From Ruminococcus sp. (GTDB taxonomy: Bacteria > Bacillota > Clostridia > Oscillospirales > Ruminococcaceae), in contig JAFUTK010000013.1 of assembly GCA_017471405.1 (NCBI GenBank), positions 1 to 34,904 of the forward strand: a stretch of DNA of 34,904 bases, read 5' to 3'. The position numbers and the translations under genes were made by a program. The notes below the pieces were generated by a model that saw nothing but the letters and a program-made list of their open reading frames with translations, was not told where the DNA came from and ran no database searches. This document shows, piece after piece, positions 22,681-34,607 of the stretch (position 1 is its first letter; each line of letters begins with the position of its first letter).

Positions 22681-22810
22681 CTGTCTGATTTTTTGGTCAA
22701 TATGTATGCATATAATGTTTAATAATTGTACGAAACGCCAAAAATGCCAAAGACATATTCTGTTTACAAATTGATAATAGAATATTAGCATTATATATTA
22801 AGAAATAATA

Positions 22811-22949
22811 TATAATGTATGGTGAATGATTATCCTCACAATGGGGCAGCAGCCTCTGGTGACGGATATGGTCATCACGGTCCCTCACAAAAGGGATGAT
22901 TTGTGTAAAAGCGTTTTGGAGAACGCAAAAAAGGAGTGGAAAAATAATT
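22811..22949 (+). promoter_or_regulatory. structured leader of the cohesin surface-protein gene
   Basis: A TATAAT box (22811-22816) without a clear -35 would start a leader of about 127 bases. It contains four consecutive hairpins: GGGGC-AGCA-GCCTC (22843-22856), TGGTGAC-N7-GTCATCA (22857-22877), TCCCT-N6-AGGGA (22881-22896) and GCGTT-N6-AACGC (22911-22926), then AAGGAG (22931-22936) for the start at 22950. I match no known riboswitch. The stretch 22682-22810 is A/T-rich with no gene. Confidence 0.45.
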
Positions 22950-25900
22950 ATGAGGAAGAGACTTCTCTCAGGCTTCACTTCTCTTGCTCTTGCTCTGTCA
23001 GCGCTGCCGGCAATACCGGCTTCGGCAGAGGGAGAAAAGATCAAGCTTGAAGTCGAGACTGCTACTGCAAAGGCGGGAGAGACTGTCACTGTAAATCTGA
23101 AACTGACCTCCAATCCCGGTTTCGGAACAGGTGACGTCGAGGTCCTGTGGGACAAGGACGTCTTTGCGCTGAAATCTGTTTCCTGGAAGAGCGTTGCACC
23201 TAACAACGGCTCCAACACCAGCACAGCCACAAAGGAAAACACCGGAATGTGGCACGCTGCGTTCGGAGACAGTGAGGCTGACGAGAGCTTTGAGGACGAG
23301 GAAGACGGATTCTATGACGGACTCTGGAAGGGCAAGTATCCACTGAGCGGATACAACTTTACCGCTAACGGTCTGCTCTGCACCATGACCTTCACTGTTG
23401 CCAGCGATGCAGCAAGCGGTGATTATGTCATCGACCTTGACGAAAGCAACGCCGAGTTCTATGACGGCGATATGACAAGCGGCAAAAAGCTGATAGACTT
23501 CGAACTGACTGACGGCAAGATCACCGTTCAGGGAAATGAGCATGTTCACGACCCTGTGTTTCACGCAGCGGATCCGGCAACTTGCACAAAAGACGGCACC
23601 GTCGCTTATTATAGCTGCTCTGGCTGCGACAAGCTTTTCTCCGATGAGGCGATGACCAAGGAGATAACCTCCATCGTTGATAAGGCAAAGGGGCACACAC
23701 CCGGTGAGACTGTTAAGGAAAACATAAAGGGCGCTACCTGCACAGAGGCAGGCAGCTATGACAACGTTGTTTACTGCACAGTCTGCAAGGCTGAGCTCTC
23801 CAGAGAGACTGTTAACGAGAAGGCTCTCGGACACGACTGGAAAGAGCCCGAATATGCTTGGGACGGATTTGCCGGCTGTGAAGCTTCCCGCGGATGCACC
23901 AGATGCGATGTAGTGGAAAGCGAAAGCGCTGTTATCACCAGTGAGGAGACCAAGTCTGCTACCTGCTCGGCAGAAGGTGAAACCACCTACACAGCTACCT
24001 TTAATAATACTGTTTTCAAGACTCAGACCAAGACTGCTGCTATCCCCATCGATCCTGAGGCTCACGAGTGGGACGAGGGAGAGATCACAACGGAGCCTAC
24101 CTGCGTGGCAAAGGGAGTAAAGACCTTCACCTGCAAGCTCAACAAGCAGCACACCAAGACCGAGGAAGTTGCTATCGACCCCAACGCTCACGACTGGGAG
24201 AAGACCGTTACTAAGGAAGCAACCTACACTGAGGACGGCCTTGAGCACTGGGTATGCAAGAACGGCTGCGGCGAGGAGAAGGATGTAACTATCCCGATGC
24301 TCTCTCACGACCACAAGTTCAAGACCCACACTGAGGTCCCCGCTACCTGCACAGAGGACGGAACCAAGGCTTATGTTGAGTGCGAGCTCTGCGGCAAGAA
24401 GTACTTCGACACCACCGCTAACGTTGAGATAACCGACGACAGCCAGCTGGTGATCAAGGCAGAGGGTCACAAGTGGGGCGACGTTACCAAGGAAAAAATA
24501 ACCGAGCCTACCTGCGGCAAGGACGGCCAGCACGATGAGGTCATCTACTGCACAGTCTGCAACGCTGAAAAGCCTGACAGCAGAAAGACAGTTACCGACC
24601 TCGCTACCGGAAACCACACCTGGGGCACTGCTGATTACAAGTGGGCTGATGACAATTCCGCCTGCACAGCGACACACAAGTGCTCCGTATGCGAAAAGGA
24701 AGAGACCGAGACCGTAGATTCCGCTAAGACAGTTACTCCTCCTTCCTGCACAGAGAAGGGCGTAATTACTTACACAGCAACATTTACAAACACTGCATTT
24801 GCAAAGCAGACCAAGACCGTTGACGGCGACCCCGCTAACGGACATACTCCCGGTGAGGCCGTTAAGGAGAACGTCAAGGACGCTACCTGCGGCAAGGATG
24901 GAAGCTACGATGAGGTAGTTTACTGCACAGTCTGCAGCGATGAGCTCTCCAGAGAGTCTAAGGTAATTCCCGCTACCGGCGAGCACACCTGGGGCGACGT
25001 TACCAAGGAAAATGTAACCGAGGCTACCTGCGGCAAGGACGGCCAGCACGATGAGGTCATCTACTGCACAGTCTGCGGCGCTGAAAAGCCCGACAGCAGG
25101 ACTACAGTTACAGACCCTGCTACCGGCAAGCACAGCTGGGGCGCTACCGTTTACAAGTGGTCTGATGACAACTCCACCTGCACAGCGACACGCAAGTGCT
25201 CTGTATGCGAAAAGGAAGAGACCGAGACCGCAAACTCCACCAACAAGGTGACCACAGAGCCTAAGTGCGAGGAAAAGGGCGTTAAGACCTACACTGCTAC
25301 CTTTGAGAATGCAGAGTTTATGCCTCAGACCAAGACTGAGGATATCGACGCTCTCGACCACGATTGGGGCGCTGTTACCTACGAGTGGGCAGCTGACAAG
25401 AGCTCTGTTACCGCTACCAAGCCCTGCAACAGAGACCACGCTCACGACATCGTTGAAACTGTGAACACCACAGAGAGCACCACAGCTACCTGCACAGAGG
25501 ATGGCGTAAAGACCTACACCGCCACCTTTACCAAGGACGTATTCACCGCTCAGACCAGCGACCCCGTTGCAGACACTGCAAAGGGCCACAGCTGGAGCGA
25601 AGTGACCTACACCTGGGCTGAGGACAACTCCACCTGCACCGCAAAGAGGACCTGCTCCGAGTGCGATGCTGTTGAGGAGGAGACCGCTACAGCCACAGCC
25701 GAGACTACCGACGCTGACTGCGAGGTAGCCGGCAAGACCGTATACTCCGTTTCCTTCGAGAACGAAGAATTCAAAGCACAGACCAAGACCGTTGAGATCA
25801 AGGCGCTCGGCCACGAGTGGGACGAGGGTAAGGTCACCAAGGAGCCTACCGACACAGAGGCAGGCGAGAAGACCTACACCTGCAAGCACAACGAGACACA

Positions 25901-26402
25901 CACCAAGACTGAAGAGATCCCTGCTCTCGGCGCTGTGGAGTACACTCCCTCCGTTACAGAGCTGACCTGGAAGAAGGGCAGCACCGATGATGTTGCAGTT
26001 ACCGTAAACCGCAGCAGAGACGATGACAAGACCTTCGGGCTCTTCACAGGTGTTACCGTTGACGGCGAGACTGTTGACGCTGCTAACTACACAGCAGAGG
26101 CCGGCAGCCTGAACCTCAAGCTCCTGGCAGCTTACCTCGAGAAGCTCACTGTCGGAGACCATACCGTTAAGGTAGTATTCACCGACGGCAGCGCAGATAT
26201 CAAGCTGACCATCACTGAGGACGCAGCTCCTACACCGGACGATCAGAACACTCCTGCTCCGACCGATACCGATAAGCCTGGCGATGACGACAAGCCTACA
26301 GATCCCGGCTCCACCAACCCCAAGACCGGAGCAGCCGGCGCAGCAGGCGCAATGCTCATAGCAGTTGCAGCAACGGCATTCGTTCTGAAGAAGAGAAAGT
26401 AA
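22950..26402 (+). CDS. cell-wall-anchored cohesin protein with CxxC repeats
   Basis: This 1150-residue surface protein has a signal peptide (1-26, ending PASA), a cohesin-type domain (about 27-195, with TAKAGETVTVNLKLTSNPGFG and DKDVFALKSVSW) that would bind dockerin-bearing enzymes, a region of about ten Cys-rich units (about 197-990), an Ig-like module resembling CBM_X2 (about 995-1085, with RSRDDDKTFGLFTGVTVDG), an Asp/Pro linker and a sortase tail (NPKTG at 1123-1127, hydrophobic stretch, KKRK). Repeat units read ATCTxxG...YxCxxCxxxxS and come with HxW/GH motifs. The start at 22950 is chosen from AAGGAG and the signal peptide; the longer frame from 22896 has no signal peptide start. It probably holds dockerin proteins at the cell surface. 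Confidence 0.9.
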   Translation: MRKRLLSGFTSLALALSALPAIPASAEGEKIKLEVETATAKAGETVTVNLKLTSNPGFGTGDVEVLWDKDVFALKSVSWKSVAPNNGSNTSTATKENTGMWHAAFGDSEADESFEDEEDGFYDGLWKGKYPLSGYNFTANGLLCTMTFTVASDAASGDYVIDLDESNAEFYDGDMTSGKKLIDFELTDGKITVQGNEHVHDPVFHAADPATCTKDGTVAYYSCSGCDKLFSDEAMTKEITSIVDKAKGHTPGETVKENIKGATCTEAGSYDNVVYCTVCKAELSRETVNEKALGHDWKEPEYAWDGFAGCEASRGCTRCDVVESESAVITSEETKSATCSAEGETTYTATFNNTVFKTQTKTAAIPIDPEAHEWDEGEITTEPTCVAKGVKTFTCKLNKQHTKTEEVAIDPNAHDWEKTVTKEATYTEDGLEHWVCKNGCGEEKDVTIPMLSHDHKFKTHTEVPATCTEDGTKAYVECELCGKKYFDTTANVEITDDSQLVIKAEGHKWGDVTKEKITEPTCGKDGQHDEVIYCTVCNAEKPDSRKTVTDLATGNHTWGTADYKWADDNSACTATHKCSVCEKEETETVDSAKTVTPPSCTEKGVITYTATFTNTAFAKQTKTVDGDPANGHTPGEAVKENVKDATCGKDGSYDEVVYCTVCSDELSRESKVIPATGEHTWGDVTKENVTEATCGKDGQHDEVIYCTVCGAEKPDSRTTVTDPATGKHSWGATVYKWSDDNSTCTATRKCSVCEKEETETANSTNKVTTEPKCEEKGVKTYTATFENAEFMPQTKTEDIDALDHDWGAVTYEWAADKSSVTATKPCNRDHAHDIVETVNTTESTTATCTEDGVKTYTATFTKDVFTAQTSDPVADTAKGHSWSEVTYTWAEDNSTCTAKRTCSECDAVEEETATATAETTDADCEVAGKTVYSVSFENEEFKAQTKTVEIKALGHEWDEGKVTKEPTDTEAGEKTYTCKHNETHTKTEEIPALGAVEYTPSVTELTWKKGSTDDVAVTVNRSRDDDKTFGLFTGVTVDGETVDAANYTAEAGSLNLKLLAAYLEKLTVGDHTVKVVFTDGSADIKLTITEDAAPTPDDQNTPAPTDTDKPGDDDKPTDPGSTNPKTGAAGAAGAMLIAVAATAFVLKKRK
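24476..24725 (+). repeat. internal repeat copy 1 within the cohesin gene
   Basis: The DNA here recurs at 24992-25241, exactly 516 bases (172 codons) downstream, with long runs of identity such as the segment around GGCAAGGACGGCCAGCACGA. The match is at nucleotide level, not only protein level. Confidence 0.85.
24992..25241 (+). repeat. internal repeat copy 2 within the cohesin gene
   Basis: Second copy of the 24476-24725 block. A shorter block near 23700-23820 also recurs near 24843-24960, so repeat units were duplicated more than once. Confidence 0.85.
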
Positions 26403-26417
26403 ACCAATAACGATTAG

Positions 26418-26451
26418 GGCGGCAGCGGCTTTCCCGCGCCGCCCTTTTTTA
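26418..26451 (+). terminator. intrinsic terminator after the cohesin gene
   Basis: GGGCGGC (26418-26424) pairs with GCCGCCC (26439-26445), followed by TTTTTT (26446-26451). The next gene starts 12 bases later with no room for a promoter. Confidence 0.85.
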
Positions 26452-26462
26452 CGGGTGAGAAA

Positions 26463-26804
26463 ATGAAGAAAAAAACAAAAATGGCAATTGCCGGCGCAGC
26501 TACGGCAGTGCTCGTAACGCTGATAATAGTGCTGATAGTAATGCTGATAAGCAACCGCTCGGATAAGCTCAAGGGGCTTTGGAAGCTGGATGTTATAACC
26601 TCCTACGAGTTCGACGGCAAAGGCGAGGGAAGGCTGATAGTCAGCGGAGACTTTGTTTTCACCTACACCATTGACGGCGACAAGGTCAGCATTGACTTCA
26701 AGAATTCCGCAGCCAGAGATATCACCTACACCTTCAAGGTGGAGGGCGACACTCTCACCCTCACAGAGGAATACGGCAAGGAATTCGTGCTGACAAGGCA
26801 GTGA
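26463..26804 (+). CDS. membrane-anchored DUF5640-like small protein
   Basis: The 113-residue protein has a basic start, one transmembrane helix (about 8-30) and an extracellular beta domain beginning GLWKLDVITSYEFDGKGEGRL and continuing FTYTIDGDKVSIDFKNSAARDITYTFKVEGDTLTL. That pattern, with short alternating strands, resembles the DUF5640 lipocalin-like family common in Clostridia; function unknown. GGGTGAG lies before the ATG. It sits between a terminator and a HAD phosphatase gene 21 bases further on, and probably relies on read-through from the cohesin gene. Confidence 0.75.
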   Translation: MKKKTKMAIAGAATAVLVTLIIVLIVMLISNRSDKLKGLWKLDVITSYEFDGKGEGRLIVSGDFVFTYTIDGDKVSIDFKNSAARDITYTFKVEGDTLTLTEEYGKEFVLTRQ

Positions 26805-26825
26805 CACAATCAAAAGGAGATCCCT

Positions 26826-32951: not shown

Positions 32952-33006
32952 ATATGTGACCCGGGACGCGGCTTTTGCGTCTCTATTAGTAAAGGGAGGC
33001 GAGGAT

Positions 33007-33561
33007 ATGGAGGACAGCTTGCTTGTAAAGCTTTTCCTTGACAGAAATGAACAGGCACTGTCAGAGGCTCAGCGGCAGTACGGTACCTATTGCCATATGA
33101 TAGCTTACAATATCCTCCGCTCCGACGAGGACGCCGAGGAGTGCGTCAGCGACGCTATGCTGAAGGCGTGGAGGAGCGTTCCTCCCGCAGTTCCTCAGTC
33201 CCTTAAGGCCTACCTCGGCACCCTTACCCGCAACCTCGCTCTCGACCGCTACAGGAGAGCCTCATCAGATAAGCGCAGGGGCTCCCCGCTGCCTATCGAC
33301 GAGCTCTCCGACCATGCCCCCTCCGAGCTCAATGTGGAAACGGAGGCGGAGGGTCAGCTGCTCCGGGAGAGGCTCTCGGCATTTTTATACTCTCTGGACG
33401 AGGAGTCGCGGAGGTATTTTATCCAGCGCTACTGGTATATGCTGGAGATAAGCGAGATAGCGGAGAAAAACCGTGTGGGCAAAAGCAAAGTGAAAATGCG
33501 CCTGCTGCGAGCCCGCGGCAGACTGCGCGAATATCTCAAAAAGGAGGGCTATGAGCTATGA
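33007..33561 (+). CDS. ECF-type (sigma-70 family) RNA polymerase sigma factor
   Basis: The 184-residue protein has sigma region 2 (about 20-90: YGTYCHMIAYNILRSDEDAEECVSDAMLKAW) and region 4 with helix-turn-helix (about 120-180: ISEIAEKNRVGKSKVKMRLLRARGRLREYL), and lacks regions 1 and 3, as ECF factors do. It directs transcription in response to a signal held by its partner. The ATG at 33007 is favoured by GGGAGG about 13 bases before it and by fit to the family; a longer in-frame start at 32902 would span the promoter. The next gene overlaps by ATGA, typical of a sigma/anti-sigma pair. Confidence 0.92.
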   Translation: MEDSLLVKLFLDRNEQALSEAQRQYGTYCHMIAYNILRSDEDAEECVSDAMLKAWRSVPPAVPQSLKAYLGTLTRNLALDRYRRASSDKRRGSPLPIDELSDHAPSELNVETEAEGQLLRERLSAFLYSLDEESRRYFIQRYWYMLEISEIAEKNRVGKSKVKMRLLRARGRLREYLKKEGYEL

Positions 33562-34607
33562 ATAAGGAAAGAGACCTGATGGCATATCTTGACGACAGCT
33601 ATATCTTAGAGGCGGAGCCTAAGGAGGCTCCCCGCAAAGGTGCTAGGCACTTCCGCTTCACCGCAGCGGCTGCGGCAGCCGCCGCCTGCGTAGGGCTTAC
33701 CGCCGTAACGGCAGGAGCAGTGGTGATCTACCGCAGCAGCAGTACCTCAACCAGTACGGTGTATGAGAGCCGAGCCGAGGAAATTCTGGAGTCTCAGGGA
33801 TTAATTCTGGACGAGCAGGTCGGCGGCGAGCATTTCGACGTCTCGCTGGATACTGTCCTTGCTGATGACTACATCTACCGCATTATGCTGACCGCCGCAC
33901 CCAAGGACGACATAGGCAGGAGCTACGTCAGTCAGTATGGCACGCCGGAAAAGGCTCTGGACGGCGTTAGTCTTATAATCACAAATACAGAGGGCGAAAG
34001 CGCTCCCTTCGGCACCCGCTATGCAAGAGTATCGGAGGACGGCAGCTTTGTTATCATCGTCAACGGACACTTTGATGACCTCTTCCGCCGCACCTGTCCC
34101 GACGGCAAGCTGAATGTCAAAGTAAACGGCGATATGTTCGGTAACGCTTCCTTCACCGTAAAGCCGGAGAAAAATCTGGAGAGCCGCATAGCCACCACTG
34201 CCAACGGCACCAAGATACACGTTTCTCCCATAGGTGCCGAGCTCGTTTACGAAAGCGAGGAAGCACAGGATTTCCGCGCCCTCGGCTTCCTCTGGAAGGA
34301 AGGCGGCAGAGAGCGCTTCTTAGAGAGCCTCGGCATCACTCCCGAGCAGGACGCCGCAAATTCTGCGGTCACCAAATGGATAGACTTCCGTTATCTGATG
34401 GCCGGAAAATTCTTCGGGAAGGATAATTACGGCGTCGGCGGAGGCGGCGTGGGCTTCTGGGAAAACGGCGACTATTACGAGGACTTAGGCTACACCGGCT
34501 CCGGCACCTATGTCCAAACAGTGGATTTTGGCTGCATAGTTGACCTTGACGACACCACAGGCGTAGTTTACGGTCTTGAAGAGCTGCCCTACGACAGCCA
34601 GCCGTAA
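33558..34607 (+). CDS. putative anti-sigma factor, single-pass membrane protein
   Basis: The 349-residue protein has a short cytoplasmic part (1-33, with an acidic segment AYLDDSYILEAEPKE), an Ala-rich transmembrane helix (about 34-58) and a large extracellular domain (59-349), containing several beta-rich segments and a late Gly-rich GVGGGGVGFW. The layout and the 4-base overlap with the ECF sigma gene indicate an anti-sigma factor sensing something outside the cell; the extracellular domain resembles the DUF4179-type domain of clostridial members. The cytoplasmic part is short for sigma binding, and no zinc-binding HxxxCxxC (ZAS) motif is visible. The signal is unknown. Confidence 0.75.
   Translation: MNKERDLMAYLDDSYILEAEPKEAPRKGARHFRFTAAAAAAAACVGLTAVTAGAVVIYRSSSTSTSTVYESRAEEILESQGLILDEQVGGEHFDVSLDTVLADDYIYRIMLTAAPKDDIGRSYVSQYGTPEKALDGVSLIITNTEGESAPFGTRYARVSEDGSFVIIVNGHFDDLFRRTCPDGKLNVKVNGDMFGNASFTVKPEKNLESRIATTANGTKIHVSPIGAELVYESEEAQDFRALGFLWKEGGRERFLESLGITPEQDAANSAVTKWIDFRYLMAGKFFGKDNYGVGGGGVGFWENGDYYEDLGYTGSGTYVQTVDFGCIVDLDDTTGVVYGLEELPYDSQP

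Follow-up and report, generated by a model that had tools for sequence, protein, structure and literature searches.

What does a single cohesin at the surface of a ruminococcus hold, and on what kind of support, when most of the protein behind it comprises repeated units rich in cysteine and histidine? The question is raised by a gene at 22950..26402 (+) of the window, a 34,904-nucleotide stretch of DNA from Ruminococcus sp. that is the entire contig C74 (JAFUTK010000013.1, 34.9 kb) of assembly GCA_017471405.1, a genome of 2.04 Mb in 87 contigs, 64% complete. Comparison of sequences indicates that the encoded protein is probably a wall-anchored, single-cohesin anchoring scaffoldin, displaying dockerin-bearing cargo on a zinc-clasped stalk.

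Modules of the anchor protein

The open reading frame extends over 22896..26402 (+), and translation from the ATG at 22950, preceded by an AGGAG 13 bases 5′ at a long spacing, gives 1150 amino acids (aa). The modules are as follows, 9qa6 being the solved immunoglobulin A (IgA) protease of Thomasclavelia ramosa and A6 a profile built for the X2-like domain.

22950..23027 (+): aa 1-26, beginning at the start codon and presumed to be a Sec signal peptide, from inspection of the sequence by eye
23028..23534 (+): cohesin, aa 27-195, from the Pfam profile and the predicted fold
23541..25949 (+): Cys/His array, aa 198-1000, divided into 14 units and proposed to contain 14 metal joints of four ligands each, from Cys/His positions, covariation rules and the 9qa6 match
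25956..26225 (+): Ig-like, X2-like domain, aa 1003-1092, the equivalent of BB8 of the IgA protease, from profile A6 against 9qa6 (E 1.1e-17)
26226..26315 (+): low-complexity D/P/T linker, aa 1093-1122, from the sequence
26316..26402 (+): sortase signal comprising NPKTG, a hydrophobic stretch, KKRK and stop, from profile NF033846 above cut-off

The cohesin is recognized by Pfam Cohesin (PF00963) at aa 31-180 (E 4.1e-9; 37.2 bits against a cut-off of 24.1), and its predicted model, the structural comparison proposed by the initial annotation, displays the cohesin β-sandwich fold, closer to type I; the cohesin call of that annotation is thus borne out, as is its sortase anchor, with NCBIfam Rumino_NPXTG (NF033846) scoring 24.8 bits against a cut-off of 23.5 at aa 1123-1150. 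Four genes with sortase domains above cut-off are present in the same genome; the N-terminal signal would export the protein, and a sortase would link NPKTG to peptidoglycan. One cohesin together with a C-terminal sortase signal, the combination that marks ScaE-type anchoring scaffoldins, is found in the window protein, and the 34.9-kb contig carries no other cohesin or dockerin match and hence no sca cluster (scaA/scaB/cttA).

The array is covered by no Pfam or NCBIfam family above cut-off in a scan of the whole protein. Together with the X2-like domain, it matches 9qa6 with a whole-sequence E of 2.7e-21 in two stretches, one corresponding to the first unit and the other to the last unit and the X2-like domain, and aa 194-259 match the ZBD of 9qa6 with an i-E of 1.4e-7. 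Searched as profile A6, the X2-like domain retrieves 9qa6 as the sole PDB match at E 0.1. The CBM_X2 family (PF03442) is matched by 16 of the 18 A6 members at E 0.1 (best 1.4e-6), whereas the window domain scores 14.2 bits within the whole protein and 20.8 when scanned alone, below the curated cut-off of 28.9. For the module described earlier as CBM_X2-like, the CBM_X2 match is thus weak, and CBM_X2 was rejected as its family name. The heme-binding family Shr-like_HID scores 22.3 bits, just at its cut-off, in the scan of this domain.

In the T. ramosa enzyme, the authors name the corresponding parts ZBD1, ZBD2 and BB8, predict five zinc sites in ZBD1 and ZBD2, mostly comprising two His and two Cys and located at sub-domain interfaces, and call the fold possibly new, pending experiment (PMC12237041). 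The C-terminal part of this protease (ZBD1-BB8-ZBD2-SPQTG) resembles the window protein in its units, its Ig/X2-like domain and its wall anchor; it differs in the remainder, an M64 protease, in having no cohesin, and in its five predicted sites within two ZBDs.

The distribution of the layout was followed in 16 genomes of the genus, one per species, with G000 as the genome of the window. Of these, 14 contain cohesins (13 above cut-off) and 12 a dockerin match at E 0.001, and the succession of cohesin, array, X2-like domain and TG anchor is present in four species, including that of the window, G006 (957 aa), G013 (1109 aa) and G014, where the copy is split over two contig ends. Judged by sequence, the layout is more than chance: its array and X2-like domain match 9qa6, and the whole arrangement is found again in three further species. 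The ortholog cohesins are borderline, with 26.0 (G006) and 24.4 bits (G013) in the genome search and 21.2 and 19.0 bits by hmmscan; the G014 fragment has no cohesin match by hmmscan, its call resting on our own iterated profile, and hmmscan found no cohesin in L218, L219, L220 and L055, although the genome profile search did detect the first three. Profiles are reported to miss divergent ruminococcal cohesins (PMC11557425). A second version, comprising a cohesin, a Big_2 domain, a Cys array and NPxTG, occurs in at least four more genomes (G007, G008, G010, G005), a minimum, part of the genus genomes having been inspected for it. In a tree of 19 cohesins with modest support and long branches, the window type (84/91), the Big_2 type (92/96) and the adaptors described below (100/99) form separate groups, and the separation of the first two suggests that the stalk may have joined two cohesin lineages, each acquiring its own. 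The wall-anchor gene of G005 (L221:4612-8313 (-)) reads as two open reading frames, a cohesin part and an array-anchor part.

Array units and their proposed metal joints

Divided at the starting His, the array yields nine short (39-54 aa) and five long (75-77 aa) units, with boundaries and pairs assigned by hand from Cys/His positions. The core pairs comprise ten exact CxxC, one CxxxC and three C-x5-H; the earlier count of about ten CxxC repeat units thus holds for the CxxC pairs, the number of units being slightly higher. Short units mostly contain three Cys. Each joint would bind one zinc through four ligands, namely the first Cys of the preceding unit (or an additional His/Cys with which the following unit opens) and three residues of the following unit: its start His, its core Cys, and the second Cys of CxxC or the His of C-x5-H. 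The hand-assigned joints are, in order, H198/H200/C223/C226, C212/H249/C276/C279, C264/H295/C316/C319, C339/H372/C395/H401, C385/H414/C436/C440, H453/H455/C478/C481, C467/H507/C534/C537, C522/H556/C578/C581, C600/H632/C659/C662, C647/H679/C706/C709, C694/H728/C750/C753, C773/H804/C826/H832, C848/H880/C902/C905 and C924/H955/C978/H984. All 14 are complete, using 37 of the 41 array Cys. The exceptions within the window protein agree with the rule: HxH opens both the first unit and the unit at 453, which follows one whose first Cys is lost (ATY), and a first Cys is also missing from the final unit, behind which the X2-like domain lies. Two direct repeats of 269 nucleotides (window 24468-24736 and 24984-25252), 87% identical, suggest a recent duplication of units within the array.

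The rule was examined in 655 distinct units from 73 proteins. Of these units, 510 have CxxC as their core pair; among the 138 with neither CxxC nor CxxxC, the next Cys lies at +5 in 57 and a His at +6 in 42, whereas a His at +6 accompanies only one of the 510 CxxC units. A recount on a slightly different unit set gives 42/117 versus 2/525. The relation between neighbours was followed over 595 junctions, restricted to [AP][TS]X...G units and leaving out duplicates, any following unit of less than 45 aa and sequence containing X. Where the first Cys is kept (n=542), the next unit starts with one His in 517 cases, with [HC]xH in 24 and with none in a single case, in L210; where it is lost (n=50), the corresponding numbers are 6, 15 and 29; where it is replaced by His, one start His follows in 3/3. 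Loss of the first Cys tends to coincide either with an additional His/Cys opening the unit behind it or with the end of the array. Fisher's test of one start His versus the rest gives p 7e-42, a value not to be taken literally, since units within a protein are related by duplication. The six units of 50 that have lost the first Cys and are yet followed by a single His are counter-examples, some of which look misregistered.

Because array ends alone could yield part of this association, the test was repeated for the 562 internal junctions, permutations being confined to single proteins: a lost first Cys coincides with a double start at 15 junctions against 3.9 expected, with 0 of 20000 permutations as high, and the lost internal first Cys come from 18 proteins at 18 loci. 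Earlier junction tests gave 21/48 versus 12/502 with loose registration and 15/54 versus 24/543 with a stricter one. At array starts, [HC]xH is found in 12 of 19 first units versus 54 of 614 internal ones, a weaker result than the junction test and supporting only. The covariation is most simply read as a four-ligand site at each joint, comprising residues of two adjoining units; the metal would be zinc, given the type of ligands and the predictions for the IgA protease, in the consulted literature on which this covariation rule is not described.

Clasped in this way, adjoining units would form a long, segmentally flexible stalk. For about 800 residues, its length may be estimated at ~40-70 nm, as scaled either from the predicted 110 Å per 129 residues of ZBD1 or from a gain of ~144 Å per 289 residues in small-angle X-ray scattering (SAXS), in which the C-terminal domains of the IgA protease raise the maximal dimension from 106 to 250 Å, with flexibility (PMC12402451). 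The extended stalk suggested by the initial annotation is in line with this stalk-like array.

Dockerin partners and competing explanations

The genome of the window contains seven dockerins, all above cut-off, so that the dockerin proteins sought by the initial annotation are present; as a control, a dockerin also passes in 2 of 14 control genomes. In the main class (alignment A5), each half displays A-x-W-x-G-Y. The A5 profile retrieves 42 dockerins at 70 bits or more, confined to the four species with the window-type anchor (G000 3, G006 21, G013 15, G014 3), and the best score outside these is 63.9 bits. The cargo scan covers 33 of the 38 non-adaptor A5 matches (G000 2, G006 17, G013 12, G014 2), of which some are cut by the sequence stretch and two, L207 and L208, look like copies of one protein. 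A dockerin family is matched in 32 of the 33 and a glycoside hydrolase family in none at E 1e-4; the view of the initial annotation that this cohesin holds dockerin enzymes, in the usual sense, is therefore not supported, and the plant-cell-wall glycoside hydrolases that define a cellulosome are likewise absent from the proteins scanned. The domains found, each in one to four members, include leucine-rich repeats (LRR; among them LRR_EndoS, an LRR domain that takes its name from an enzyme), DUF285, GLUG, Flg_new, beta-helix, CHAP and transglutaminase-like domains, and many of the proteins match no family besides the dockerin. Among the seven dockerin proteins of the window's genome, the only glycoside hydrolase is a GH25 lysozyme.

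An adaptor, a cohesin-dockerin protein of 294-380 aa with a class-A5 dockerin, is present in all four species with the window-type anchor. The proteins encoded beside it bear a different dockerin, comprising in the window's genome a transglutaminase/LRR protein and an LRR protein, with a similar arrangement in the others by eye. Between species, the window-type cohesin shows 25-33% identity, the most divergent of the parts compared, against 43-57% for the X2-anchor part of its own protein; the adaptor shows 40-46% in its cohesin and 38-48% in its dockerin. Within three of the species, main-class dockerins share a median identity of 58-72%, as against 34-43% across species (at most 60 pairs each; the adaptor is among the three of G000, and G014 has one). 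Such a pattern would be expected of a fast-moving, species-private lock and key, and it tilts the pairing of the main dockerin class towards the wall anchor. The cohesin, at the distal tip of the stalk, would then dock the W-x-G-Y dockerins of up to 20 LRR, beta-helix, GLUG or functionally unassigned secreted proteins and of one small adaptor, whose own cohesin would hold the LRR/transglutaminase-like proteins encoded beside it; with a single type of socket, exchangeable cargo would be shown beyond the wall.

Two alternatives concern the array. Disulfide formation by the CxxC pairs, giving a stiff, EGF-like rod, would suit an extracellular, Cys-rich and repeated array; it is rendered very improbable by the Cys-to-His swaps at two positions and by the odd number of Cys, three, in most short units. 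The authors of the IgA protease work describe disulfides as absent from structures and models (PMC12237041). The units look metal-clasped rather than disulfide-bonded, and of the two possibilities that the initial annotation offered for the CxxC pairs, metal is favoured by the Cys/His covariation. It is unlikely that the array is instead the business end, binding a host glycoprotein, a polysaccharide or a metal, with structural zinc sites and a cohesin that only recruits a helper: Ig-like domains can bind ligands, protein binding by them is allowed by the protease authors in the soluble enzyme (PMC12237041), and the lengths of the orthologs (957, 1109, 1150 aa) vary as those of binding arrays do, but the units are combined with very different partner domains, including a protease head (9qa6), a cohesin and other secreted proteins, as a spacer would be. 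Moreover, the same authors state that these domains contribute neither to catalysis nor to binding of the substrate, and they propose a role as spacer or hinge (PMC12237041).

Another alternative concerns the pairing: the W-x-G-Y dockerins may bind the cohesin of the adaptor, which would then self-chain into polymers and leave the wall anchor to hold something else. The presence of adaptor and anchor in the same four species is compatible with such chains, and R. bromii Amy4, with its own cohesin and dockerin, is proposed to self-aggregate (PMC5814915); we consider this arrangement rather improbable, since the different dockerin encoded beside the adaptor provides its cohesin with partners of its own and this cohesin is less divergent between species than that of the anchor.

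The reading of the protein as an anchoring scaffoldin on a metal-clasped stalk, which we prefer, is weakened by a number of points. The pairing of anchor cohesin and dockerin class is indirect, and the adaptor cohesin could bind the class instead; adaptor dockerins diverge between species about as much as adaptor cohesins; profile A5 was trained on the same four species, which may be one clade, so that the co-occurrence is weak; and the incompleteness of the window's genome (64% complete) leads to an undercount of cargo. Regarding the joints, four CTA Cys of the long units (310, 572, 744, 896) fall outside those proposed, and two automatic parsers gave 12/16 and 13/13 complete window joints, with misparses in both (one of the 13 plainly wrong), against 14 by hand. 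Elsewhere the parsers find 8/9 and 7/8 joints complete in G006, 10/12 and 8/8 in G013 and 3/3 in the adaptor of the window's genome; the sibling proteins give 6/10 (G007), 6/9 (G010), 3/6 (G008) and 8/17 (G005), low counts due partly to misparsing and partly to another unit subtype, NHWKVC..., that departs from the simple rule. Finally, the evidence for missing disulfides in the Cys units of the IgA protease comes from predicted models, the solved structure ending at residue 876, before them (PMC12237041).

Other dockerin and cohesin genes were observed alongside. A divergent gene pair on contig C87 of the window's genome comprises (i) L018:3050-4750 (-), encoding a protein that is cohesin-like by eye, without a Pfam match, and carries an NPVTG anchor, and (ii) L018:5118-6650 (+), encoding a secreted protein in which a cadherin-like domain is combined with a dockerin of a third type (VIDALTIL). 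It looks like a second private cohesin-dockerin pair, because a similar dockerin adjoins a Pfam cohesin protein in G013 (C67), G011 (L223) and G001 (L224). The dockerin proteins encoded at L017:3508-7512 (-) and L203:192-3683 (-) are extremely rich in Cys towards the N-terminus, the latter with 89 Cys in 1163 aa; in the copy from the window's genome, the dockerin is the only Pfam match. On an Oscillospiraceae contig, L120:7430-13978 encodes one protein combining a cohesin, a dockerin and Cys units, preceded by a neighbour that ends in a cohesin-like module.

Gene surroundings and related systems

The gene lies downstream of a pyridoxal-phosphate (PLP) enzyme gene and is followed by genes for a small DUF5640/lipocalin-like protein and a HAD hydrolase. 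Two candidate signals flank it.

22771..22799 (+): promoter-like site TTGATA-17-TATATT, 10/12 in a consensus scan, a score that does not by itself indicate function
26425..26450 (+): hairpin and T run resembling an intrinsic terminator, not significant by count (3 sites in the region versus a shuffle mean of 4.4)

An antisense frame of 1271 aa (window 22998-26813 (-)) spans nearly the whole gene and was set aside as a probable shadow, its GC by codon position mirroring the sense gene. Further along, window 32998-34607 (+) encodes a sigma-70-family factor (ECF-like) and then a 349-aa protein without a Pfam family that may be its anti-sigma partner.

Among described systems, ScaE of Ruminococcus flavefaciens is a single-cohesin, sortase-anchored scaffoldin (PMC4081043, PMC2930009), sharing with the window protein the one cohesin, the C-terminal sortase signal and the presumed anchoring role; the window gene lies outside any sca cluster and its cohesin model is closer to type I, so that the protein is not filed as ScaE. 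Sca2 and Sca5 of the R. bromii amylosome are likewise sortase-anchored cohesin proteins, differing in their cargo of amylases and, for Sca5, in a pair of cohesins accompanied by two modules without an assigned function (PMC5814915). The adaptor resembles ScaC, the R. flavefaciens adaptor, in its cohesin-dockerin layout, whereas that of the window's genome has Cys units between the two. The mucinolysome of Limousia is a gut cohesin-dockerin system also not devoted to plant fibre, but it comprises multi-cohesin scaffoldins carrying mucin glycoside hydrolases, in contrast to the single cohesins described here and to the 33 scanned cargo proteins, none with a hydrolase family (PMC12997984). Wall anchors with one cohesin, adaptors, and dockerin proteins with LRR or transglutaminase domains are already known from ruminococci (PMC4081043, PMC2930009), and R. 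flavefaciens has proteins in which a single cohesin is joined to regions without an assigned function (PMC4081043). For the combination of a cohesin with a metal-clasped array, and for the covariation rule, no prior description was found in a literature search outside of which much subscription literature lies. The initial annotation, which knew of no scaffoldin with this layout, is in this respect in agreement with the search as to the combination, the parts being known from ScaE and from ZBD1, ZBD2 and BB8 of the IgA protease (PMC12237041).

A broader reading, possible but doubtful, is that the cohesin-dockerin pair is used not for fibre digestion but as a species-private plug and socket for swapping surface proteins, on a stalk whose joints are zinc-locked by two adjoining units, so that zinc could modulate its stiffness or assembly, the unit being a widespread metal-clasped repeat without a Pfam family and with a four-ligand rule legible in its sequence. 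A search of 84,980 species yielded 165 stretches with coding sequences related to the query, and among the best 80 of these, corresponding to 79 loci, at least three units in one protein occur at 52 (50 Bacillota, 2 Bacteroidota). The value of the rule is that the sequence tells which residues of which two units would form each metal site. The repeat occurs across many gut bacteria, one example being an IgA-cleaving protease of the human gut, and apart from the rule only structure predictions of it were found. A cohesin-dockerin system whose main cargo, as the scan indicates, is other than glycoside hydrolases would widen the view of what cohesins are for.

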